The notes beneath the pieces are model-generated. The model was given only the letters and a program-made list of their open reading frames with translations. It had not been told where the DNA came from and made no database searches. A stretch of DNA of 64,000 bases from Symmachiella dynata (GTDB lineage: Bacteria; Planctomycetota; Planctomycetia; Planctomycetales; Planctomycetaceae), in assembly GCF_007747995.1 (NCBI RefSeq), contig NZ_CP036276.1, positions 7,182,001-7,246,000 of the forward strand, in the 5' to 3' direction. Positions 9,525 to 28,853 of the stretch are shown in pieces (within the stretch, counting starts at the first letter, position 1; every line of letters starts with the position of its first letter). A program made the position numbers and the translations under genes.

Positions 9525-10310
9525 ATGGTTTATTACGAAGGCGAAGGCATAGCCATTCCCCGCAACGAGACGTCCGACTCACGGCCCTTTGTAAAGCGTG
9601 TAATCGTATACGGCATTCTTGCTGGTGTGCTTTTTGTTTTCTTTCTGCTCATGATGCCCTCGGTCGGTCCGCATCCCAAAGCGGCTCGCAGGACGGCCTG
9701 CCGCAACAATCTCAAGCAGATCGGCCTGGCGCTGCACAACTACCACGATGTCTACGGCACCTTTCCGCCCGCATATGTTTCGGACGACCAAGGCCAACCG
9801 ATGCACAGTTGGCGGGTGTTGATTTTGCCGTATTTCTACGATTCAAAATACCGAGCCCTCCACGATCAATATCACTTCGACGAGCCGTGGGACGGGCCGC
9901 ACAATATCGGCCTGTTGGAGAAAACGCCTGAGCTATATCGTTGCCCCAGCCATAAGGACGCGGAAGCGGGGATGACCGACTACGCAGCTGTGGTGGGCGA
10001 TGCGTGCGTGATGCGGGGAACCGTGCCAGTCACAATCCGTGAAATCACCGACGGATCCAGCAACACAGTTGTTCTTGGGGAATCGACCGGGTCGCGCATT
10101 CGCTGGACCGAGCCGCGCGATGTGAGCTTGGGTACCTTCAAGCACATTGGCGATGTCGATGGTTTTAGTAGCGAACACGATGGTGCTTATGGGGGCGCAT
10201 TTATGCTGCACGCTGATGGAAGCGTGCATTTTGTGAGCGAGGAGATGCCTGCGGAGAGCTTGAAAACGCTGTTTACACGCGCCGGTGGGGAAGAGGTGCC
10301 ACCGTACTAG
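9525..10310 (+). CDS. DUF1559 protein, membrane-anchored
   Basis: 261 residues. The N-terminus has a single membrane segment ([19 protein letters not shown]) without the GFTLIE prepilin motif, followed by [47 protein letters not shown] and [15 protein letters not shown] at 9525 is one nucleotide after the previous stop, with GGTGGAG upstream, so it is translated from the same message. Longer upstream extension in this frame only overlaps the preceding gene. Confidence 0.9.
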
Positions 10311-10319
10311 GAGTTCCGA

Positions 10320-11048
10320 ATGGACCATGCCAGTGACTCTGCCAAGCCGAAGCGCCGACGGTGGGTCTACTGGAGCCTCGGCGTTGCCGTGATTTTTGGC
10401 TTTTTGGCGTGGCGTGTGGTTTTGTGGGGCATGCATGGCACCGAGGCAACTTGGAACCGCGGCATGCTCAAACAAATCGGACTGGCGCTACACACTTATC
10501 ATGATGACTATGGTCGCTTTCCGCCGGCTTATGTCACCGACAAGGACGGCAATCCGATGCATAGCTGGCGGGTGTTGATCCTGCCTTATATGGATCAAGG
10601 CGCATTGTACAAAGCCTACGATTTCTCGGAACCGTGGGACGGGCCTCACAATATCCGCTTGCTGGACAAACGGCCCGTAACCTATGGCGGGAGATTTTAT
10701 GATGGAGATAAAACAAAAACGCATTTTGCCGCGATGGTCGGCGATCCATGCATTTTCCGCGGCGCGGTGCCGGTGAGCCTCAGCGAAGTGACCGACGGCT
10801 CATCTAACACATTAATCATCGGCGAGGCTGTAGGAGCGGGGATTCCCTGGACTGAGCCGCGCGATATTGAATTTGAGAAATTCACCCGCTTTGGCGACCC
10901 AAACGGCTTGAACGGCTTCGACAACATTGCCGTTACGGTTTTATGTGCCGATGGCTCGGTATTTCGGATCATTGCTGACCAAATTGATGGCGATGCACGT
11001 GCTTGGTTCACGCGCGCCGGAGGTGAAGAGATTCCGCGAACTGACTGA
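10320..11048 (+). CDS. DUF1559 protein, membrane-anchored, shortened N-terminus
   Basis: 242 residues, with a basic N-terminus (KPKRRRWVYW), one membrane segment, then [47 protein letters not shown] and CADGSVFRIIAD. It lacks both the RNNLKQ cysteine/arginine run and the prepilin motif, so it is the most diverged copy. It ends the four-gene tandem array; GGA-loop hairpins follow directly after. Confidence 0.9.
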   Translation: MDHASDSAKPKRRRWVYWSLGVAVIFGFLAWRVVLWGMHGTEATWNRGMLKQIGLALHTYHDDYGRFPPAYVTDKDGNPMHSWRVLILPYMDQGALYKAYDFSEPWDGPHNIRLLDKRPVTYGGRFYDGDKTKTHFAAMVGDPCIFRGAVPVSLSEVTDGSSNTLIIGEAVGAGIPWTEPRDIEFEKFTRFGDPNGLNGFDNIAVTVLCADGSVFRIIADQIDGDARAWFTRAGGEEIPRTD

Positions 11049-18417: not shown

Positions 18418-18703
18418 CGCGGCAATGCAAGTTTTTGCTTTGAACTCATTCGAGCATTTGATTTCTCCTCCTGCGGAATCAAGGCGGCGGTCCACACCAC
18501 CCGATGCAGCGACTTCTCGGTGTCGATAAAATCCGTTCATCTCCCAACAACAATTCAAATTCGTAGTTGCCGCAAAAGGAATTTGTTTGTACTTTGCAGC
18601 AATGAAGGATAGACCCGTTGCACAGGATGGATTTCAATTGCAACGCTCGAACGGCACAAATCAGCCGAACGAGGGACGCCGCTCTTGCGCGAATGGAGTG
18701 TTG

Positions 18704-19756
18704 ATGACGGCCAAGCGCCCTTCACGAATCGTCGCCCGCAGCATACGGTGCGTCTTGCTAACGGCTCTGGTTTTGCTCGGAACCGACAATGTCGTACTGG
18801 CCGAAAGCACGTCGATTTTCGATACGGCTTCGTACAACTCCGAAAAGATCAGCGAGATCTTCATGCTGGTGTTGGCGATCACCGGGTTGATTTTTGTGCT
18901 GGTGATTGCCGCCATCGCGGTTTTTGTCGTGCGGTTCCGTGCACGGCGCAGTGAAACCGAAGATGAGCCGGAACCCCCGCAAATATACGGCAGTTGGCCG
19001 ATCGAGATCGCCTGGACGATTGCGCCGCTGTTAATCATTTTTGTTTTGTTCCTCGTGGTCGTCCGATCCGTCAATGAACAACGGCCTACGCAGGCTCCGG
19101 GCGATGCCGTGCAGGTGCGGGTGATTGGGAACCAATGGTGGTGGTCCTTCGAATATCCCGAATTGGGTTTCACCACCGCGAATGAATTGCATGTCCCGCT
19201 GGACGAATCTGCAGATCCCAGTTCGGTCTTTATGCAATTGGAATCGGCGGATGTGGCGCACAGTTTTTGGGTCCCGCGACTGGCCGGCAAGACCGATCTG
19301 ATTCCTAACAGAATCAACACGATGTGGTTTACACCGAACGCGACTGGCATCTATTACGGACAATGCGCGGAGTATTGCGGGACACAACACTCGAAAATGT
19401 TGCTGCGGGTGATTGTAGAAACCCCCAGTGAATTCGCAGCTTGGGTGGAAAACGAAAAGAAGCCAGCGGTGAACGACCCTGCGGTCGCCGACGGGCGGGC
19501 GCTGTTTTTGGAACATTCCTGCGCCAGTTGTCATACGATTCGCGGCACCAACGCGCGGGGCACTTTTGGGCCGGACCTGACGCATTTGATGAGCCGTCAA
19601 ACGATCGGTGCCGGGGCCGCTGAGAACAATCACGACAATCTGATCACTTGGATCACGAATCCACATGTTTTCAAAACGGGATGTTATATGCCCGAGATGA
19701 AACTGACTGCTGAAAACGTCAAAACCATCGTCTCTTATCTGGAATCCCTTCGTTAG
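18704..19756 (+). CDS. ctaC: cytochrome c oxidase subunit II with fused cytochrome c (caa3 type)
   Basis: 350 residues. Signal/TM helix, two membrane helices (IFMLVLAITGLIFVLVIAAI and APLLIIFVLFLVVVRSV), then the CuA cupredoxin with VIGNQWWWSFEYPE, the His of DVAHSFWVPRL and the CuA loop CAEYCGTQHSKM. A C-terminal class I cytochrome c has CASCH and a distal Met in YMPEM. This marks a caa3-type oxidase that receives electrons through its own haem c. ATG 18704 has GGAG five nt upstream. It opens the respiratory operon. Confidence 0.95.
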   Translation: MTAKRPSRIVARSIRCVLLTALVLLGTDNVVLAESTSIFDTASYNSEKISEIFMLVLAITGLIFVLVIAAIAVFVVRFRARRSETEDEPEPPQIYGSWPIEIAWTIAPLLIIFVLFLVVVRSVNEQRPTQAPGDAVQVRVIGNQWWWSFEYPELGFTTANELHVPLDESADPSSVFMQLESADVAHSFWVPRLAGKTDLIPNRINTMWFTPNATGIYYGQCAEYCGTQHSKMLLRVIVETPSEFAAWVENEKKPAVNDPAVADGRALFLEHSCASCHTIRGTNARGTFGPDLTHLMSRQTIGAGAAENNHDNLITWITNPHVFKTGCYMPEMKLTAENVKTIVSYLESLR

Positions 19757-19771
19757 CGGGCAATTGTTGTC

Positions 19772-21436
19772 ATGGAAGCAGACGCCTACACCGCCCTCCC
19801 GAACCGTCGCCCCGCTACAGCGGTGGCGCACGATTGGGTGACGACGGTGGACCACAAACAAATCGGCATCCTGTATATTGTGGCGAGTTGTTTTTTCCTG
19901 ACGCTGGGCGGCGTGGAAGCGTTGTTGATGCGGCTGCAATTGTGGATGCCCGATCTAGAGATCGTCAGCCCGCAAACATTTAACCAATTGTTCACAATGC
20001 ACGGCACGACGATGATTTTTTTCGTCGTGATGCCGGTCGAAGCGGGCATGGCTAACTATTTGGTGCCGCTGATGATCGGCGCGCGGGATATGGCTTTTCC
20101 CCGGTTGAACGCGTTCGGCTTTTGGATGTTTCTGTTCGGCGGGTTTTTGTTGTACTTCAGCTATTTCGGCGCGATGGGCTTATACGGCGCCGGATCGGCT
20201 CCCGACATCGGTTGGTACGCCTACGCTCCACTGACCTCGCCGGCATTTTCGCGCGGGAATAGCACCGATTATTGGCTGCTGGGGACAATGATTTCGGGCG
20301 TGGGAAGCGTTTCATTCGCCGTGAATATGATCGCTACGATCATCACCATGCGGGCACCCGGCATGCGGTTGTCGACGATGCCGTTGTTCGCTTGGATGAT
20401 TTTGGTTACGTCCGGTTTGATTGTGTTCGCGTTTCCGCCCTTTACGGCGGCAGAAATCATGATGTTGTTCGACCGGCACCTCGGCGCGCATTTCTTTGAT
20501 ACGCAAGCCGGGGGCGACGGTCTGCTGTGGCAGCATCTGTTTTGGTTCTTCGGACACCCGGAAGTCTATATTTTGGCGCTGCCGGCCTTTGGCATTGTTT
20601 CAGAAGTCATTCCTGTGTTTTCGCGTAAGGTGATCTTCGGCTATGCCTCGATGGTGGCAGCCACGGTGAGCATTGGCTTTATCGCCATGGGGGTGTGGGC
20701 GCATCACATGTTCACGGTGGGGATGAGCAGTACGGTCGATCTGTTCTTCAGCGCTGCCACATTCCTGATTGCCGTACCGACCGGAATTAAAATGTTCAAC
20801 TGGACGGCAACGCTCTACGGCGGCAGGATCCGTCTGACCGTGCCGATGCTGTTTTCGCTGGGCTTTCTCTCGTTGTTTCTTATCGGGGGATTGACCGGCA
20901 TCATGCTGGCGATTGTGCCGATGGACTGGCAACTCAGCGACAGTTATTTCCTGATCGGCCACTTCCACTTTGTGGCCTTTGGCGGGATCTTTTTCGCGGT
21001 GATGTCGGCTTATTACTATTGGTATCCCAAGGCCATTGGGCGAAAGATGAACCGCAAATTGGGGCTGTGGCATTTCTGGCTGCAGTTCATTGGGTTCAAT
21101 CTGACGTTCATTCCGATGCACTTCTCAGGCATCCTGGGCATGCCCCGTCGCGTGTATACGTATAAGGCGGGTGTGGGGCTGGAATTTTGGAATCAAGTGA
21201 CCACCGTCGGTGCGATCATCACCGGCATCTCGTTGCTATTTTTCATCGTCAATCTGTGTTACTCCTATTTTTATGGCGAGGAAGCGGGCGACGACCCTTG
21301 GAATGCTTGGACGTTGGAATGGGCGACGACTTCGCCGCCTCCGGCTTATAACTTTGAAGAACTTCCGGTTGTCAAAAGCCGACGGCCGTTGTGGGATTTG
21401 AAACATCCCGACGATCCGGATTGGAAACACGAATAA
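19772..21436 (+). CDS. ctaD: cytochrome c oxidase subunit I
   Basis: 554 residues, twelve hydrophobic segments, the haem-copper catalytic subunit. Visible ligands: low-spin haem His in FTMHGTTMIFF, the CuB His with cross-linked Tyr in FGHPEVYI, the CuB pair in WAHHMF and the two haem His in IGHFHFVAFGG. The YVGMPRRVYTY-like AGILGMPRRVYTYK block is also present. Starts 15 nt after ctaC, SD weak. Confidence 0.98.
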   Translation: MEADAYTALPNRRPATAVAHDWVTTVDHKQIGILYIVASCFFLTLGGVEALLMRLQLWMPDLEIVSPQTFNQLFTMHGTTMIFFVVMPVEAGMANYLVPLMIGARDMAFPRLNAFGFWMFLFGGFLLYFSYFGAMGLYGAGSAPDIGWYAYAPLTSPAFSRGNSTDYWLLGTMISGVGSVSFAVNMIATIITMRAPGMRLSTMPLFAWMILVTSGLIVFAFPPFTAAEIMMLFDRHLGAHFFDTQAGGDGLLWQHLFWFFGHPEVYILALPAFGIVSEVIPVFSRKVIFGYASMVAATVSIGFIAMGVWAHHMFTVGMSSTVDLFFSAATFLIAVPTGIKMFNWTATLYGGRIRLTVPMLFSLGFLSLFLIGGLTGIMLAIVPMDWQLSDSYFLIGHFHFVAFGGIFFAVMSAYYYWYPKAIGRKMNRKLGLWHFWLQFIGFNLTFIPMHFSGILGMPRRVYTYKAGVGLEFWNQVTTVGAIITGISLLFFIVNLCYSYFYGEEAGDDPWNAWTLEWATTSPPPAYNFEELPVVKSRRPLWDLKHPDDPDWKHE

Positions 21437-21452
21437 CCGGCCTCACAAATTC

Positions 21453-22079
21453 ATGAGCGAAATCGCGCACACTACATCCGGCGAACTTGCCGCCCCCCCA
21501 CAGGGTTGGGAGGGGGAAGGAACATCGCATCTGGATCCCAAGAAAGTCGGCATGGCCTGCTTTCTGTGTTCCGAAGCGGCGTTCTTCATGACCTTGCTGG
21601 TGGGTTACGGTTTGTATCTCGGAAGAGACCTGACTGGCCCCACACCGGCAGAAGTGCTCAGCATGCCGCTGGTGATAGTGAATACGATTTTGCTGTTGAG
21701 TAGCAGCATCACAATCGCCCTGGCTATGAAACGGTATGAGAAATCAGAATTCGGACAGTTTCGCCTGTTCCTGGGGCTGACCATCTTTTTGGGCGCAGCA
21801 TTCATTGTGGGAACGGGCATCGAATGGAAAGGGCTGATTGAAGATCACGGACTGACGATCAGCCGCAATCTGTTTGGCACGACGTTCTATACGCTGATCG
21901 GCTTTCATGCGACGCATGTGACGATCGGTTTGATCATGATGTCGACGTTGTTGGGCATCCAAGCGGCTGGACGTTTGGGAACTGACAGTCCGGCAGCGGA
22001 ACTGATTTCGTGGTATTGGCACTTTGTGGATGGCGTGTGGATTGTGGTCTTTTGTCTGGTTTATGTGTTTGGCCGTTGA
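21453..22079 (+). CDS. ctaE: cytochrome c oxidase subunit III
   Basis: 208 residues with about five membrane helices. Motifs: KVGMACFLCSEAAFFMTLLV (start of the CoxIII domain, usually W.FL.SE..FF), GTTFYTLIGFHATHVTIGL and YWHFVDGVWIVVF, all standard for subunit III. Starts 16 nt after ctaD, and its stop overlaps the next start by one base (TGATG). Confidence 0.96.
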   Translation: MSEIAHTTSGELAAPPQGWEGEGTSHLDPKKVGMACFLCSEAAFFMTLLVGYGLYLGRDLTGPTPAEVLSMPLVIVNTILLLSSSITIALAMKRYEKSEFGQFRLFLGLTIFLGAAFIVGTGIEWKGLIEDHGLTISRNLFGTTFYTLIGFHATHVTIGLIMMSTLLGIQAAGRLGTDSPAAELISWYWHFVDGVWIVVFCLVYVFGR

Positions 22080-22984
22080 TGGCATCAGAAAGCGGATTTG
22101 ACGCATTGAATTCTTCTCCCGAACAACATGAAGGCTCCGCCGAACGTGGCGACGCACCGGTGCGTGAAGAGGTGGTGGAAATGCCCAACGCCACAGCTGC
22201 GCCGATGGTGATGGCATTCGGGCTGACCTTGGCGCTTTCCAGCGTGGTGATGCATTTGGCCTTTGCCGTCGTCGGCTTGGTGATTGCAGTGGGCGGATTG
22301 GTGTATTGGATTCGCCACCTGACCCCAGGAGCGGGTGTGCACTGGGAAGAATGGGTTCCCAAAAGCAACCGCCCCCAACCGGTACGGGTCTCACCAGGTG
22401 GCGTATCATCGATTCAATCCGGGATGCCGGGCCATCGGCTGCGTGTTCCCGCGGAGATTTATCCCTACTCGGCAGGTCTCAAGGGAGGACTTGTCGGCGG
22501 GTTGATGATGGCGCTCACGGCGCTGGCCTATGGGCATTTCAGCGGGCATGGCATTTGGTATCCCGTCAATCTGCTCTCGGCAATGGTCATCCCCGCTTTC
22601 AATAACATGGGCGCTGAGGACCTCGACAAATTCCACCTGATGGGCTTGATCGTGGGAACGATCATTCATGTGGTGACATCAATCATCGTGGGTCTGTTCT
22701 TTGGCATCATTTTACCGATGTGCCCGCGCTGGCCGCTGTTGTGGGGCGGGTTGGTCGCTCCATTGTTGTGGTCAGGATTTGTGTACGGATTCATGGGCGT
22801 CCTCAATCCAGTGATGAGTGAGCAGGTGGATTGGCCCTGGTTCTTCGTTTCGCAATTCGCTTTCGGAATCACCATGGGGTTTGTCGTGATGCAATCGACC
22901 AAAGTTCAAATCCAACAGGTCTTGGAAGTGGAAACCCAACAGCCGGCGGACAACAGCCAACACTCGCAACCGGACGAATCGTGA
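22079..22984 (+). CDS. membrane protein of the oxidase operon, unknown
   Basis: 301 residues. N-terminal soluble tail (~45 residues, Ser/Glu-rich), two helices (MVMAFGLTLALSSVVMHLAF and VVGLVIAVGGLVYWI) resembling a subunit IV/CtaF hairpin, then a second block with about five helices (GGLVGGLMMALTALAY, HLMGLIVGTIIHVVTSI, WGGLVAPLLWSGFVYGFMG, FFVSQFAFGITMGFVVM). I know no named family for the second block. Its tight coupling (one-base overlap on both sides) argues for a structural or assembly role in this oxidase/bc system (inference). Confidence 0.8.
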   Translation: MASESGFDALNSSPEQHEGSAERGDAPVREEVVEMPNATAAPMVMAFGLTLALSSVVMHLAFAVVGLVIAVGGLVYWIRHLTPGAGVHWEEWVPKSNRPQPVRVSPGGVSSIQSGMPGHRLRVPAEIYPYSAGLKGGLVGGLMMALTALAYGHFSGHGIWYPVNLLSAMVIPAFNNMGAEDLDKFHLMGLIVGTIIHVVTSIIVGLFFGIILPMCPRWPLLWGGLVAPLLWSGFVYGFMGVLNPVMSEQVDWPWFFVSQFAFGITMGFVVMQSTKVQIQQVLEVETQQPADNSQHSQPDES

Positions 22985-23754
22985 TCAGACAACGCATTCA
23001 ACAAATTCGCAGGAAAGTCCCCCGACCGTCGCACGGTGTCTTGCGACGATGGTGCGGTCGCTTGTGTCTGCTCTCACTGTTTTTCTCCGTGGGGTGTTTC
23101 GACTCACTGCCGGGCAAACCGACGGAAGCAGATCGCTATAAGCGTCCCGACACGGTTATGGATTTTCACACGCTCTACAAAACCAATTGCTCGGGTTGCC
23201 ATGGTGCCGACGGCACAATGGGACCGGCGCCGCCTTTGAATGATCCGCTGTTTTTGGCGATTTGTTCCGATGCGGACATCAAGCAGATCGTCATGCACGG
23301 TCGAGACAACACACCGATGCCAGCCATGGACCACAAAACGAGTGGGCCGCTGACGGAGAAACAAATCAATGCCATCGTCGCCGGCATTCGCGCGGAATGG
23401 GGCAAAACGCCGCCCCAACTATCACCACCGTTTCCGACCTACCAACTTGCTGAGACACCCGGTGATGCGCAAGCCGGTAAAAAAGTCTTCTCGCAATATT
23501 GCGCCACCTGTCATGGCAAAGACGGCCAAGGGGACACAGCGGGAGCACTGAACGACGCCGGTTTTCTGGGCACGATCAGCAATCAAGCCTTAAGGCGGAT
23601 CATCATCACAGGCCGCAGCGACTTGGGTATGCCGAACTACCATGCGATTGGCGACGATTCGCTGGAAGGCAAACCGCTGACATCCCAACAGATCACAGAC
23701 TTGGTCGCCCTGCTGGCAGAGTGGCGGACCGCTGATGTAGGGGGCAATGAGTAA
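22981..23754 (+). CDS. dihaem cytochrome c lipoprotein
   Basis: 257 residues. It starts at GTG 22981 overlapping the previous stop by 4 nt (GTGA). The signal peptide CLLSLFFSVGC has a lipobox, with lipidated Cys near residue 39. Two class I cytochrome c domains follow with CSGCH (~69) and CATCH (~175), and candidate Met ligands in NTPMPAM and LGMPNY. It probably carries electrons between the Rieske/cytochrome b unit and the caa3 oxidase at the membrane surface. Confidence 0.9.
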   Translation: MIRQRIQQIRRKVPRPSHGVLRRWCGRLCLLSLFFSVGCFDSLPGKPTEADRYKRPDTVMDFHTLYKTNCSGCHGADGTMGPAPPLNDPLFLAICSDADIKQIVMHGRDNTPMPAMDHKTSGPLTEKQINAIVAGIRAEWGKTPPQLSPPFPTYQLAETPGDAQAGKKVFSQYCATCHGKDGQGDTAGALNDAGFLGTISNQALRRIIITGRSDLGMPNYHAIGDDSLEGKPLTSQQITDLVALLAEWRTADVGGNE

Positions 23755-24331
23755 CGGAATGGACGAAGGAACTTGTATGAATTCACAATCCGGCGAACCT
23801 CCGACCATGGAGACGGCAACCACCCGACGGGGGTTTATGGAGTGGTTTAGCTGGGCGCTCCTGGGGCTAGGCAGCGTGGCGATGGCGATCCCGATCTTGG
23901 GATTTTTTCTGGGACCGATTCTCAAGCCGCGGGCCGATGAATGGGTCGATTTCGGGCCGCTCACGGACTTCCCGCAAAATTCGACGCGTTTGGTGGATGT
24001 CTTGAATCCGCTGCGCGGCGCCAACGATGGGATGACCGGCAAGGTGGCTGCTTATGTCCGGCGGATCGAGGGGGAGACGTTTCAAATTTTCTCTACGCAC
24101 TGTACCCATTTGGGCTGTCCGGTGTCGTGGTTCAAGGAATCGGGACTTTACATGTGTCCCTGCCACGGCGGCGTGTACTACGAAGATGGAGGGCATGCCT
24201 CCGGTCCGCCGCCGCGCGGATTATACGAATTCGAGCATCGCGTCGAAAAAGACCGTTTGATGGTCAAGTTGGGACATCTGCCCACGTTGCAAGATCCGGG
24301 AAGCGCACACGTCTCGGGAAAAAACTCATAA
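23747..24331 (+). CDS. Rieske [2Fe-2S] protein of a bc-type complex
   Basis: 194 residues. A twin-arginine-like signal (TTRRGFMEWFSWALLGLGS) with one membrane anchor, then the Rieske cluster motifs CTHLGC and CPCHGGVYYEDG (Cys/His ligands plus the disulfide Cys pair). Start taken as the ATG at 23747, overlapping the cytochrome gene by 8 nt; ATGs at 23759 and 23777 are alternatives. Works with the adjacent cytochrome b. Confidence 0.94.
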   Translation: MSNGMDEGTCMNSQSGEPPTMETATTRRGFMEWFSWALLGLGSVAMAIPILGFFLGPILKPRADEWVDFGPLTDFPQNSTRLVDVLNPLRGANDGMTGKVAAYVRRIEGETFQIFSTHCTHLGCPVSWFKESGLYMCPCHGGVYYEDGGHASGPPPRGLYEFEHRVEKDRLMVKLGHLPTLQDPGSAHVSGKNS

Positions 24332-24359
24332 CGGCAGCGGCGAAGGAATCCGCAACACA

Positions 24360-25823
24360 ATGAAACAGGCAATCGGTAAACTCTTGTGGTGGTTTGAGGA
24401 GCGGCTTGAGCTGCGCACATCGTTGTGGACGGTGATGCGTCACCCCATTCCGCGCGACCTCCGCACACAAGTCGGCTGGCTGTACGTCTTTGGCAGCACG
24501 GCTATGACACTGTTGGTGTTGCAAATCGTGACCGGCATCGGCTTGGGGATGGTCTATGTTCCCTCGGCCGGCGAAGCCTACGAGAGCCTGGAACATATCA
24601 ACTACAACGTCGAACTGGGCTGGATGTTGCGGGCGATTCACAATTGGTCGGCCAACGGCATGGTGGTGCTGGTGGTCGTGCATATGACCCAAGTCTTTTT
24701 GATGGGGGCCTATAAGTATCCTCGCGAATTGACTTGGATGATCGGCGTGGTGCTCTTTTTGCTGACGCTCGGCATGGCATTCACTGGTCAAGTGTTGCGC
24801 TGGGACGCCGATTCCTATTGGGGTCTGGGCGTCGGAGTGGCGATGGTTGGGCGGATTCCCTACATCGGTCCGGAGTTGGTGGAGTTGATGTTGGGCGGCC
24901 CGACGGTAGGAGCGGATACGCTCAGCCGATTCTTTGCGCTACACGTGTTTGTTATGCCCGGCCTGTTGTTTGCCTCGTTAACGGTGCATCTGTATCTGGT
25001 GGTCCGCAAAGGAATCTCAGAACCTCCCAAGCCGGATGACCTCGTCGATCCGGAAACCTATGTTGAAAAATATGAAGAGAAACTAAAAACAGGCGATCCG
25101 TTTTTCCCGGATGTCTTTTTACGGGATGCAGCGTTTATTGGATTGACGTTGTTGGTGATTGTGGGGATGTCCGCCATCTTGGGGCCTGACGGTCCCGGTG
25201 CGCCGCCCGATCCGACTTTGTTGGCCGTCGAACCGTTGCCTGACTGGTATTTCCTGCCCGCGTTCGCCGTGTTGGCGCTCAGTCCGCCCTCGTTGGAGAC
25301 CGGGATTATTTTGATTGCGCCGGTGATCATTGTTGCCATCATGTTCTTGTTTCCGGTCTTCGCCGGAAAAGGACAGCGTAGTCCGCGTCGACGACCGGTG
25401 GCCGTGCTGATCGTCATCGGCTGTTTTCTCAGCTACTGTGTGTTATGGCAGTTGGGCGTGCAGGAACCGTGGTCGCCACACATGACTGCTTGGAGCGGCG
25501 TGCCGGTGCCAACGCACATGATCAAAGGTCGCTCACCCAAAGAGTTGCAAGGGGCGGCCATCCTTCAAGAAAAGACCTGTCGAAACTGCCACGCGCTCGA
25601 TGGACAGGGAGGCCAGCGTGGGCCGGATCTGACCGTGGTGGCGACGCGGTTGACACGGGACCAGTTGATTCGACAAGTCGTTCAAGGAGGCGGAAATATG
25701 CCCGCCTACGGCAAAGAATTGAATCGCTTCGAAGTCGAAGCATTGGTCAGCTTTTTGGAGACATTAAAGCCAGAGGGTTACGCTTCGGCTGAAGCCTCGG
25801 TGGTCACCGATCGGGCTGATTGA
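24360..25823 (+). CDS. cytochrome b/b6 with C-terminal fused cytochrome c
   Basis: 487 residues. Two haem-b His pairs sit in HNWSANGMVVLVVVHM and HVFVMPGLLFASLTVH. The quinol-site motif appears as PDWYF instead of PEWY. Around residue 270 a subunit IV-like block continues, and a C-terminal cytochrome c domain carries CRNCH (~residue 406) with a Met ligand in NMPAYG. Thus cytochrome b, subunit IV and a haem c are on one chain, and no separate cytochrome c1 gene is present. This gene continues the Rieske pair. Confidence 0.94.
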   Translation: MKQAIGKLLWWFEERLELRTSLWTVMRHPIPRDLRTQVGWLYVFGSTAMTLLVLQIVTGIGLGMVYVPSAGEAYESLEHINYNVELGWMLRAIHNWSANGMVVLVVVHMTQVFLMGAYKYPRELTWMIGVVLFLLTLGMAFTGQVLRWDADSYWGLGVGVAMVGRIPYIGPELVELMLGGPTVGADTLSRFFALHVFVMPGLLFASLTVHLYLVVRKGISEPPKPDDLVDPETYVEKYEEKLKTGDPFFPDVFLRDAAFIGLTLLVIVGMSAILGPDGPGAPPDPTLLAVEPLPDWYFLPAFAVLALSPPSLETGIILIAPVIIVAIMFLFPVFAGKGQRSPRRRPVAVLIVIGCFLSYCVLWQLGVQEPWSPHMTAWSGVPVPTHMIKGRSPKELQGAAILQEKTCRNCHALDGQGGQRGPDLTVVATRLTRDQLIRQVVQGGGNMPAYGKELNRFEVEALVSFLETLKPEGYASAEASVVTDRAD

Positions 25824-25863: not shown

Positions 25864-28299
25864 GTGATTTCAGTGGACTCCTCGTTCCAAGCCATTCTCA
25901 GTTCCTGGTCGTTCGACGTTTGGATCGTGGCTCCGATTGTACTGTCCACGCTGCTCTATGTGCGGGGCTGGTACGTACTTCGCCGGCGTGGGTCGCAGCG
26001 ATTTGGTGCCTGGCAATTGGCCGCGTTTGGTTGCGGCATGGCCTTGTTGTCCATCGCCCTACTCTCGCCCATTGAAACCTTCTCGGCGTTGATGTTGCGG
26101 ATGCACATGGTGCAACATCTGCTGCTGATGTTTCTCATTCCGCCGCTGCTTTGGCTCAGCGCCCCGGAGCTGCCGTTGCTGTGTGGATTGCCCTCAGGCC
26201 TGCGTCGTGAATGGATCGCGCCACTTTATCGTTGGAAACCGATCCGTAGCGGTTTTGCCTTTCTCACGCGGCCACCGGTGGCGTGGGGTCTGTTTGTCGC
26301 AGCGACTTGGATTTGGCATCTCCCGCGTTTTTATGATGCTGCGCTAAGCTCTGGAACCTTGCATAACTTGGAGCATGCCTGTTTCTTCTGGGCAGCCATG
26401 CTGTTTTGGTGGCCGGTCGTGCAGCCCTATCCGAGTCGATTGAACTATTCGCGGTGGGTCCTGCTGCCCTATTTGTTTCTGGCAGCAGTTCAAGGGACGG
26501 TTCTGTCGGGGATTTTGTCGTTTGCCAACGATGTGATTTATGACCATTACGAATTGCTGCCGCAGGTCTGGGGCATTACCGCAATCGATGATCAAGCCAT
26601 CGCCGGAACGTTGATGTGGCTGTTTGGCATGCTGGCCTATGTGATTGCCGGAGCATTGGTCGGATATAAATTGCTCTTTGCGCCTCGTTCGAGGCAACTT
26701 CACTTTGCCGTGGCTGGTATGCCAGCAGTGCAGAGTGGAGTAACCGCGTATGGTCCCCCCACAGCAGTGCGGCCGACTCCCCGCCGATTGAATCGCGCTA
26801 AGCATCGCCCACCGGTGCGGCAACAATTGCCGATACTCTCCCCCGATGGGGATTCCTGCCACCGCCCTGCGAGGGACGTACTGAACGTGCCGCTCTTGGG
26901 CCGGTTTCTGCGGTGGAACAAATCGCGGTTGGTGCTGCAAATCTTGATGTTCGCAGCGGCGGCTTTGGTGATCGTCGATGGATTGTTGGGAGCGCAGATT
27001 GTTTCGCTGAATCTGGCGGGCGTGCTGCCGTGGATCCATTGGCGCGGATTTTTGGTGCTGGGGTTACTCGTCGCCGGGAATTTGTTTTGCATGGCTTGTC
27101 CGTTCAAATTGTCGCGAACGTTGGGGAAGACACTCTTCGGCGGTCGTCGACACTGGCCGCGATGGCTACGCTCCAAATGGCTGGCCGTCGGCTTGTTGTT
27201 CGTGTTCTTCTGGGCCTATGAAGTGTTTTCATTGTGGCAAAGCCCGTGGTGGACGGCTTGGATTGCGGTGGGGTATTTTCTGGCGGCGTTTGTGGTGGAT
27301 GGTTTTTTTCGCGGAGCGGCGTTTTGCAAGTACGTCTGCCCGATCGGTCAGTTCAATTTTGTGCAATCACTCGTTTCGCCCTTAGAAGTTCGGGTTCGTG
27401 ACACGTCTGTCTGTGAAGAGTGCACGACCAAGGAGTGCATTCGTGGGGCTGCGGCGACAGCGACGGCTGCGGCGATTCCCGGTTGTGAATTGCATCTGTA
27501 TCAACCGCGCAAGTCGAGTAACTTTGATTGCACGTTTTGCCTCGACTGTGTGCATTCCTGTCCGCATCAAAACGTGGGGATCCTGACAACGCTGCCCGGT
27601 CGGGAACTGCTCCGTGATCCGCGGCGGTCGGGGATCGGTAAATTGGGCAGTCGAACGGATGTAGCGGCGCTGGTGTTCCTGCTGGTTTTCGCCGCTTACG
27701 TGAATGCGGCAGGCATGGTTGCCCCTGTCTTGGATCTAATTGACAAGCTGCAAGCAGAGTGGGGTTTTGCGAGTCGCATTCCCCTTGTCACGGCTGGGTA
27801 TCTGTTGGGTTTGGGAGCAGTACCGTTCTGCTTGGTGGCGATCGCTTCGCTGGCCGGACGCCGATTGAGTGGGGATTCCGAATCCGCCTTGCGCATCGCG
27901 ACGCGATTCTCGTATATGCTTGTCCCACTCGGTTTTTCGATGTGGTTGGCGCATTATAGTTTCCACCTGTTCACCAGCAGTGGCGCGTTTAGCGCTGCGT
28001 TGCGACGATTTCTCAGCGAGTTTGGATGGCGCGACGTCGAGACGGCAGCGTGGGTCTGCTCGTGCGGCTTAGAAACAGCCGATTGGTTATTGCGAATGGA
28101 ACTGATGCTGCTCGATGCCGGATTGTTAATGTCGTTGTATGTCGGATACCGCATTGCCCGCGATCGCTATTTGGGAATGCGGCGCGCCATGGGAGCGTTT
28201 CTGCCTTGGGCGGGGATAGCGGTTATTTTGTTTCTCACGGGTGTTTGGCTCGTGTTCCAGCCGATGCAAATGCGCGGCGTGATGCCGATGGGGATGTGA
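25864..28299 (+). CDS. CtaG (caa3 assembly) fused to NapH/CcoG-like polyferredoxin
   Basis: 811 residues. Residues ~1-270 are a multi-helix CtaG-like domain (PF09678 type: MHMVQHLLLMFLIPPLLWLS, TWIWHLPRFYDAAL, LEHACFFWAAMLFWWPV). A ~70-residue polar linker (~273-343; 26682-26893) follows. The rest is a membrane polyferredoxin: GNLFCMACPFKLSR, CKYVCPIG (~488), CEECTTKEC (~517) and CTFCLDCVHSCP (~556), then several more helices. CtaG proteins help insert copper into oxidases, and CcoG reduces Cu(II) for delivery; a fused reducer-chaperone is inferred. Starts at GTG 25864 (alternative GTG 25873). Confidence 0.88.
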   Translation: MISVDSSFQAILSSWSFDVWIVAPIVLSTLLYVRGWYVLRRRGSQRFGAWQLAAFGCGMALLSIALLSPIETFSALMLRMHMVQHLLLMFLIPPLLWLSAPELPLLCGLPSGLRREWIAPLYRWKPIRSGFAFLTRPPVAWGLFVAATWIWHLPRFYDAALSSGTLHNLEHACFFWAAMLFWWPVVQPYPSRLNYSRWVLLPYLFLAAVQGTVLSGILSFANDVIYDHYELLPQVWGITAIDDQAIAGTLMWLFGMLAYVIAGALVGYKLLFAPRSRQLHFAVAGMPAVQSGVTAYGPPTAVRPTPRRLNRAKHRPPVRQQLPILSPDGDSCHRPARDVLNVPLLGRFLRWNKSRLVLQILMFAAAALVIVDGLLGAQIVSLNLAGVLPWIHWRGFLVLGLLVAGNLFCMACPFKLSRTLGKTLFGGRRHWPRWLRSKWLAVGLLFVFFWAYEVFSLWQSPWWTAWIAVGYFLAAFVVDGFFRGAAFCKYVCPIGQFNFVQSLVSPLEVRVRDTSVCEECTTKECIRGAAATATAAAIPGCELHLYQPRKSSNFDCTFCLDCVHSCPHQNVGILTTLPGRELLRDPRRSGIGKLGSRTDVAALVFLLVFAAYVNAAGMVAPVLDLIDKLQAEWGFASRIPLVTAGYLLGLGAVPFCLVAIASLAGRRLSGDSESALRIATRFSYMLVPLGFSMWLAHYSFHLFTSSGAFSAALRRFLSEFGWRDVETAAWVCSCGLETADWLLRMELMLLDAGLLMSLYVGYRIARDRYLGMRRAMGAFLPWAGIAVILFLTGVWLVFQPMQMRGVMPMGM

Positions 28300-28301
28300 A
28301 C

Positions 28302-28853
28302 ATGATGGCGGCACACTCTTCACGAAAAATTCTCATACTGAGCCTGTGTAGTTTGGCGTGGCTGCCCGCGCTGGCGTACGGGGATGGTGGCACGGCCCGA
28401 TTTTCGGGGAACGTTGGCGACTATCGCATGACTGTCTTCACCGAGCCGACCCCGTTGCGCGCCGGTCCGGTCGATGTCAGTGTCTTGCTACAGGACCGGC
28501 AAACCGGGGGATTCGTAACGGATGCGGCGGTTACTATCTCAGTTTCTCACGCCGACCGACCATTGAACGTCAATCGAGTTACAGCAACGACCGCTTCTGC
28601 GACGAACAAACTATTTCAAGCAGCATCGTTTGAATTCGCGCAGCCGGGCACTTGGAATATCAGTGTCGAGGTGGACGGGAATCAACAAACGGAGAGTAGC
28701 GCGTTCGAACTCAATGTCGCTCCACGTGTTCCCCGTTGGGTCGACTTTATTTTTTGGATTGGGTTTCCGGTCATTCCGATCGCGCTGTTTGGGGTGCGGG
28801 AGTCGGTCCGATATCGCCAAGCTCGCGCACCGAGTCCGGCTACCGCCGGTTGA
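28302..28853 (+). CDS. membrane-anchored periplasmic protein, YtkA-like fold suspected
   Basis: 183 residues. Signal peptide (ILILSLCSLAWLPALAYG), a beta-rich domain of about 110 residues (YRMTVFTEPTPLRAGPVDVS, GTWNISVEVDGNQQ) and a C-terminal helix (WVDFIFWIGFPVIPIALFG). The layout resembles the YtkA/FixH-like class linked to oxidase copper assembly, but the match is by eye only. It starts 2 nt after the CtaG fusion, so it closes the operon and may hand over copper (inference). Confidence 0.7.
   Translation: MMAAHSSRKILILSLCSLAWLPALAYGDGGTARFSGNVGDYRMTVFTEPTPLRAGPVDVSVLLQDRQTGGFVTDAAVTISVSHADRPLNVNRVTATTASATNKLFQAASFEFAQPGTWNISVEVDGNQQTESSAFELNVAPRVPRWVDFIFWIGFPVIPIALFGVRESVRYRQARAPSPATAG

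Follow-up and report, generated by a model that had tools for sequence, protein, structure and literature searches.

A CtaG protein fused to a NapH/CcoG-type ferredoxin module in Symmachiella dynata: a candidate copper-site assembly factor for caa3 oxidase

In a 64,000-nucleotide stretch of the genome of the planctomycete Symmachiella dynata (RefSeq contig NZ_CP036276.1, positions 7,182,001 to 7,246,000; hereafter the window), one 811-residue protein joins a Caa3_CtaG domain to a ferredoxin module of the NapH/CcoG superfamily and to a further membrane bundle at its C-terminus. Its gene stands at the end of a caa3 oxidase gene run and is directly followed by a gene for a YtkA-like protein. On balance, the fused protein is probably a one-piece, redox-coupled factor for assembling the copper site of the caa3 oxidase from the same operon. 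Relatives of CcoG, CtaG and YtkA are neighbours here, two of them within a single polypeptide, and the best reading is redox-coupled copper loading of caa3. What is new is the architecture and the C-terminal domain. In the passages of open-access literature examined, CtaG-CopD and Sco-CtaM fusions have been described and a CtaG-ferredoxin fusion was not found.

The scan of named genomes used for most comparisons below found 341 relatives of the ferredoxin module, the best 80 of which were read: 49 are fused to CtaG, 29 are unfused and two are cut off on the 5' side, a fused share that is biased upward because the ranking used the fused query. The unfused and the cut copies are referred to together as the 31 other loci, in which no CtaG part was seen. 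Two of the 49 fused proteins (L093 and L126, cut at a contig end) were left out of the alignment of fused proteins, which holds 48 sequences.

Domains of the fused protein

Residues 31-267 match Caa3_CtaG (Pfam PF09678) at E 1.3e-55 with 188.8 bits (gathering score 27.7), a family that was matched by all 48 aligned fused proteins; against the NCBIfam equivalog TIGR02737 the domain reaches 60.5 bits, under the cut-off of 279.35. H81, M82, H85, H152, H167, H171 and D243 are kept in 48 of the 48 sequences. The seven-helix membrane domain, the conserved His and Asp residues and the place in the last gene group of a caa3 operon are shared with CtaG of Bacillus subtilis, whereas the fusion alone has approximately 530 further in-frame residues with 4Fe-4S motifs and a second membrane domain. 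Caa3_CtaG has been reported to be needed for active caa3 and to have putative metal ligands (PMC9145763, PMC8239418), which have been placed on the outer side of the membrane (PMC8239418). Insertion of CuB has been suggested but is unconfirmed (PMC9145763), and both the mode of action and the choice between CuA and CuB are described as unsettled (PMC9145763, PMC13344008). A whole-genome search of S. dynata, the genome of which is a single contig of 7.77 Mb, identified the domain of the fusion as its sole CtaG.

The second part was matched by the NapH/MauN-type family TIGR02163 over residues 466-571 (E 3.3e-8; 33.4 bits, under the cut-off of 213.05). Twelve Cys residues (C409, C412, C488, C492, C517, C520, C525, C541, C556, C559, C562 and C566) are present in all 53 fused and all 33 unfused relatives compared, and a profile comparison aligned the module with Escherichia coli YccM at E 3.4e-11 and with NapH at 1.3e-10, both membrane Cys-Pro motifs included. 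YccM has been described as a CcoG homologue lacking the immunoglobulin-like (Ig) domain, and CcoG as a cupric reductase with two 4Fe-4S clusters that is encoded beside its own oxidase (PMC7558416). The module has in common with CcoG/RdxA/FixG, and with YccM by alignment, a pair of membrane Cys-Pro motifs and a pair of ferredoxin-type Cys sets; CcoG is likewise encoded beside an oxidase, in ccoGHIS. Unlike CcoG, however, the fusion lacks the FixG_C Ig domain, carries an extra C-terminal bundle, is joined to CtaG and accompanies a caa3 rather than a cbb3 oxidase, and the spacings of its CxxCP motif and of its first ferredoxin motif differ from those of YccM, the latter also setting it apart from CcoG. 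FixG_C (PF11614) had no match anywhere in the S. dynata genome, and the window protein had no match to the CcoG family TIGR02745 at E<=0.01. At this threshold, NapH/MauN was matched by 48 of the 48 aligned fused proteins, NapH by 44, CcoG by 13 (best E 9.6e-7) and the NosR model by 13. Since FixG_C and a CcoG match are missing in the window protein and NapH/MauN is the commoner match among its relatives, the module is a divergent branch of the NapH/NosR/CcoG superfamily and not CcoG proper. From NapH/MauN, its commonest curated-family match, it is in turn set apart by other genomic partners, another C-terminal domain and the score of the window protein below the family cut-off.

A full-length AlphaFold2 model, built on the 48 fused sequences, had a mean predicted local distance difference test score (pLDDT) of 86 and a predicted template modelling score (pTM) of 0.67; the domains are therefore better defined than their mutual arrangement. 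The model consists of the seven long helices of CtaG (to residue 272), a linker (276-333) predicted with pLDDT below 50, four long helices together with a ferredoxin part of lower certainty (about 345-592), and a confidently predicted five-helix bundle (598-798). Modelled by itself, the bundle reached pLDDT 92.3 and pTM 0.87. Basic residues (K/R) outnumber acidic ones (D/E) by 16 to 3 in the linker stretch and by 8 to 0 after the first CxxCP, compared with 12 to 10 in the ferredoxin stretch. Judged by hand from charge and helix order, the ferredoxin Cys residues would be cytoplasmic, and the His/Asp set of CtaG together with M618, H697, H701, M801 and M803 would lie near the outer face, in agreement with the published placement of the CtaG ligands (PMC8239418).

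No Pfam family matches more than two of 79 bundle sequences, PDB sequences gave no match at E<=10, and Foldseek gave no structural match at E<=0.001, the best being E 0.6 for the full model and 0.54 for the bundle alone. M618, W694, H697, H701 and M803 are present in all 86 proteins (53 fused and 33 unfused). The bundle is a new membrane domain for which Pfam and the PDB yielded no relative, and it has a plausible copper site. The first-pass annotation had described an 811-residue protein with a CtaG domain, a linker and a NapH/CcoG-like domain with Cys clusters; reading frame, PF09678, TIGR02163, model and the twelve conserved Cys residues bear this out, except that the redox polyferredoxin is not CcoG proper and that the C-terminal membrane domain had gone undescribed.

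A fused CtaG has a precedent in CtiP of Corynebacterium glutamicum, in which CtaG is likewise joined to another membrane copper-handling module and which is needed for oxidase activity (PMC9145763). The partner in CtiP, however, is CopD-like and N-terminal to CtaG, whereas in the window a ferredoxin module follows CtaG on its C-terminal side. This precedent raises the possibility of copper transport in place of reduction: the bundle would move copper across the membrane to CtaG, as proposed for the CopD part of CtiP, and the Fe-S part would keep copper reduced or have a regulatory role. CtiP, a natural fusion of CtaG and CopD with links to CopC and to a PCuAC-type protein (PMC9145763, PMC13344008), the invariant HxxxH and Met residues of the bundle, and the occurrence of a YtkA domain in the importer YcnJ (PMC13344008) speak for it. 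We nevertheless consider it fairly unlikely, given that Pfam gave no CopD match for the window protein or for any of the 79 bundles, that Foldseek found no structural match for the bundle at the above threshold, and that twelve conserved Cys residues imply real electron transfer.

Table 1. Features of the fused gene and its neighbours in the window.
Feature	Position	Strand	Description and basis
CtaG-polyferredoxin fusion	25864..28299	+	811 aa, GTG start, TGA stop; open reading frame, Pfam, NCBIfam, model
CtaG domain	25864..26688	+	residues 1-275, seven long helices; PF09678, fused-protein alignment, model
Linker, disordered and basic	26689..26862	+	residues 276-333; alignment, model, ratio of nonsynonymous to synonymous substitution rates (dN/dS) 0.52 (relaxed selection)
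NapH/CcoG-superfamily module	26863..27639	+	residues 334-592; four long helices, CxxCP (409/412), CxxxCP (488/492), eight ferredoxin-type Cys
C-terminal membrane bundle	27640..28296	+	residues 593-811; five long helices, M618, H697xxxH701, M801xM803; loop Cys C732/C734
YtkA-like protein, secreted/transmembrane (TM)	28302..28853	+	183 aa; ATG at 28302, 2 nt past the stop of the fusion
Upstream genes	18587..25823	+	ctaC (with cytochrome c), ctaD, ctaE, TM protein, two-domain cytochrome c, Rieske, cytochrome b (with C-terminal cytochrome c)

Gene neighbourhood and the YtkA-like partner

In the window, ctaC, ctaD and ctaE are followed by genes for a TM protein, a two-domain cytochrome c, a Rieske protein and cytochrome b, and then by the fusion and the YtkA-like gene. 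The 324-residue TM protein (22010-22984) has no significant Pfam match; many fused relatives have it at the same place, after ctaE and before cytochrome c. The 487-residue cytochrome b (24360-25823) carries a cytochrome c domain at its C-terminus, and so does ctaC in the same gene run. Among the 49 fused loci, 35 have at least one of ctaC/D/E, Rieske or cytochrome b genes on the same strand and 28 have ctaC/D/E, compared with only two of the 29 unfused loci near ctaC/D/E. The same fusion beside ctaC-D-E, for which a survey had been proposed, thus recurs, and its place at the end of a caa3 operon, true of the window, is common without being universal.

YtkA-like genes, detected with an iteratively built profile, lie downstream of the module in 42 of the 49 fused and 28 of the 31 other loci; an additional upstream YtkA-like gene was found in 19 of the 31 and in none of the 49. 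The small protein of the window scored 23.1 bits against PF13115 (YtkA-like; E 1.2e-4), under the gathering score of 25.9, the downstream small proteins of L165, L155 and a congener (L078) had no Pfam match, and the upstream proteins of L168 and L110 passed PF13115 with 54.9 and 40.8 bits. YtkA (CtaK) of B. subtilis has been proposed as a partner of Sco in the assembly of CuA (PMC13344008). The window protein resembles CtaK as a YtkA-like protein of the outer face tied to caa3 assembly, but differs from it in a C-terminal TM segment, in the absence of a lipobox as judged by eye and in a YtkA match below the Pfam cut-off. The earlier suggestion of a signal-peptide/TM protein serving as periplasmic acceptor holds for the secreted/TM nature of the protein, which is more aptly termed a YtkA/CtaK-like accessory than just an acceptor.

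Where CtaG is lacking, the module is accompanied by further genes: SCO1 in 13, a family of 198-residue proteins in 14 and PCuAC in one of the 31 other loci, and none of the three in any of the 49 fused loci. Locus L168 had Pfam matches to SCO1 (2.5e-44), PCuAC (2.1e-38) and YtkA (1.4e-14). These YtkA-like, SCO1 and PCuAC neighbours of stand-alone homologues are independent evidence for a role of the ferredoxin module in copper-site assembly, a link that the first-pass annotation had proposed and that the YtkA-like partner, SCO1, PCuAC and the caa3 gene context all back. They also bear on another explanation, respiratory electron transfer, according to which the module would be a NapH-like quinol- or ferredoxin-linked subunit feeding the bc-caa3 chain, with CtaG joined only for placement at the oxidase. 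The NapH/MauN matches of all aligned fused proteins and the occurrence of distant homologues in nap-like molybdopterin/ferredoxin clusters fit this scheme; copies without CtaG, however, accompany assembly genes and are rarely near ctaC/D/E, which makes it quite improbable.

SCO1 beside 13 of the 31 copies without CtaG would also suit a thiol reductant. CcdA/TlpA-type systems offer a comparison for outward thiol reduction, and in the same manner the module could send electrons outward to keep the Cys residues of CtaC (CuA) or of Sco reduced. A pair of Cys residues (CxC or CC) in a bundle loop that is probably periplasmic points in the same direction: it is present in 34 of 53 fused proteins, including all 31 Planctomycetota fusions from named genomes and, in the four remaining fused rows, the window and two genomes, the planctomycete G085 lacking it. 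The pair is absent, however, from the 33 unfused proteins and from the 18 fusions of Acidobacteriota and Verrucomicrobiota, so that it is not a general output site, and conservation on the outer side concerns His and Met residues; we therefore regard a thiol reductant as unlikely. As a general feature of the fusion the pair was rejected, since it follows the phylum. In Cox11, an unrelated protein, copper is bound by a CXC sequence (PMC9145763), and for this reason the pair may be an added copper site in most Planctomycetota fusions.

Several neighbours deserve mention in their own right. The 198-residue family is encoded upstream of the stand-alone ferredoxin gene in L160 (5710-6306) and 13 other loci; the one member scanned had no Pfam match. 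Behind the G085 fusion (L033, about 10000-10700), the YtkA-like protein has a His/Met-rich insert that is suggestive of copper binding. In unfused loci (e.g., L155, 5623-6162), many downstream YtkA-like proteins share the motif AH(N/E)GPP right after the apparent signal peptide. An N-terminal His is a feature of histidine-brace copper proteins, and cleavage at this motif could leave one. Distant homologues with about 30% identity (L041, 8699-10612; L046, 8553-10643) have N-terminal YHS metal-binding domains, and L041 adjoins molybdopterin oxidoreductase and ferredoxin genes resembling napA/G/H. Finally, the S. dynata genome has one full and two partial SCO1 matches, and the full one is itself fused, combining SCO1 (9.9e-28) with a DUF420/CtaM-like domain (1.6e-42; L171, 859-2253; C1, near 2664287), which makes two copper-assembly fusions in one genome. 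A Sco-CtaM fusion has been mentioned for planctomycetes (PMC13344008).

Distribution and ancestry of the fusion

The 49 fused loci belong to Planctomycetota (31), Verrucomicrobiota (10) and Acidobacteriota (8). The same single frame recurs in two further members of the genus, in a second genus of the family, in a second family of the class and in a genome from a different class, as well as in the chromosome record of Lacipirellula limnantheis (L094). An assembly or annotation artefact was rejected, given the one-contig genome of S. dynata, the agreement of the L. limnantheis chromosome and the 49 fused loci among the best 80. The two outcomes named beforehand as fatal to the first-pass annotation, a second part that is not of redox type and an artefactual join, did not appear: redox polyferredoxin families were matched, and the fusion is present in genomes that consist of one contig and spans three phyla. 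It is old, and its occurrence is wide but uneven. In a draw of 246 genomes of the phylum, 37 have the module (E<=1e-10) and 12 have CtaG, three of these 12 having the fusion, and in a draw of the family both halves share a frame in four of 150 genomes.

In the module tree, obtained by a quick search with Shimodaira-Hasegawa-like approximate likelihood ratio test (SH-aLRT) supports, a branch with support 100 separates the 33 unfused rows from all others, and a single fusion event is therefore enough. This tree was made without the 5'-truncated loci L124 and L136, and GL054 and L100 in it are identical sequences. For the CtaG-domain tree, 18 of the 26 CtaG matches from stand-alone genomes and two from the phylum draw were sampled; a second tree was made without the long branch L178. 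Fused rows cluster in the CtaG-domain tree. Stand-alone-module genomes searched for CtaG numbered 26, from the 29 complete loci without CtaG, and 17 of them also had a CtaG match. Between the window protein and that of a congener, dN/dS was 0.05 for CtaG, 0.03 for the NapH-like module, 0.08 for the C-terminal bundle and 0.52 for the linker. In this one pair, CtaG, the module and the bundle are under purifying selection.

These data also bear on another account of the join, namely that two copper-assembly steps of neighbouring genes became fused for co-expression only, without coupling. Four acidobacterial CtaGs appear in the CtaG-domain tree to have lost the tail, and genome G400 holds a fused and a stand-alone copy together, as such an account would allow. 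The persistence of the fusion in three phyla and the strong selection on both halves in the pair tested stand against it, and we hold it to be very improbable.

A proposed route for copper

In the proposed scheme, electrons would enter at the cytoplasmic 4Fe-4S clusters, and copper would be kept as Cu(I), Cu(II) being reduced at the membrane Cys motifs and/or at the outward His/Met site. From the YtkA-like protein and the bundle, copper would be handed to the CtaG domain, which would in turn load CuB (or CuA) of caa3. The sequence data show the domain anatomy, its conservation, the selection on it and its gene context, and we infer in this scheme copper as the substrate, the cupric reductase activity, the direction of electron flow and the hand-over to CtaG. 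The fusion would take the place of the CcoG-type reductase and of Cox11, which are separate proteins in other bacteria; in S. dynata, whole-genome profile searches found no match to Cox11 and none to FixG_C.

A number of observations weigh against such a role. No haem or quinone is visible that would carry electrons from the cytoplasmic clusters to the outward His/Met site, in a topology assigned by hand; reduction at the cytoplasmic Cys motifs would avoid the problem of a transmembrane carrier. Among the 14 fused loci lacking the oxidase and bc genes, five start close to or right at the end of a contig, and nine have no caa3/bc genes despite several kb of upstream sequence read. The YtkA-like gene is missing after the fusion in seven of the 49 fused loci; inspection by eye showed unrelated genes next in most of these, and a ctaB-like gene in one. 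SCO1 and PCuAC were found in none of the 49 fused loci. Most genomes of the phylum draw carry neither half, and in nine of its 12 CtaG genomes the CtaG frame is too short for the module; CtaG can therefore work without it. The four tail-less acidobacterial CtaGs are nested among the fused rows on strongly supported branches, most simply through what would be two losses of the tail; compensation by a stand-alone module is not claimed for them, as these genomes had been sampled for the stand-alone gene. With distant homologues in nap-like molybdopterin-oxidoreductase clusters, moreover, the ancestral role need not be copper.

A bolder proposal, possible though in our view doubtful, is that the fusion and its stand-alone relatives form a new class of membrane cupric reductase, in which reduction driven by cytoplasmic 4Fe-4S clusters would proceed via a hitherto undescribed five-helix domain with a conserved, outward HxxxH and Met residues, and, in the fused form, Cu(I) would pass directly within the polypeptide to CtaG for insertion of CuB; the CxC/CC pair would be an addition found in nearly all Planctomycetota fusions compared. 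A membrane cupric reductase has been suggested to be required in organisms without CcoG (PMC13344008), and, if true, the new class would supply such a dedicated membrane reductase for organisms with caa3 and CtaG but without CcoG, which may need one. The widespread fusion of CtaG with a CcoG/NapH-type redox module, together with a YtkA-like partner, provides a specific, testable link between copper reduction and the action of CtaG, and it draws attention to a membrane domain with a plausible copper site and no known relatives.

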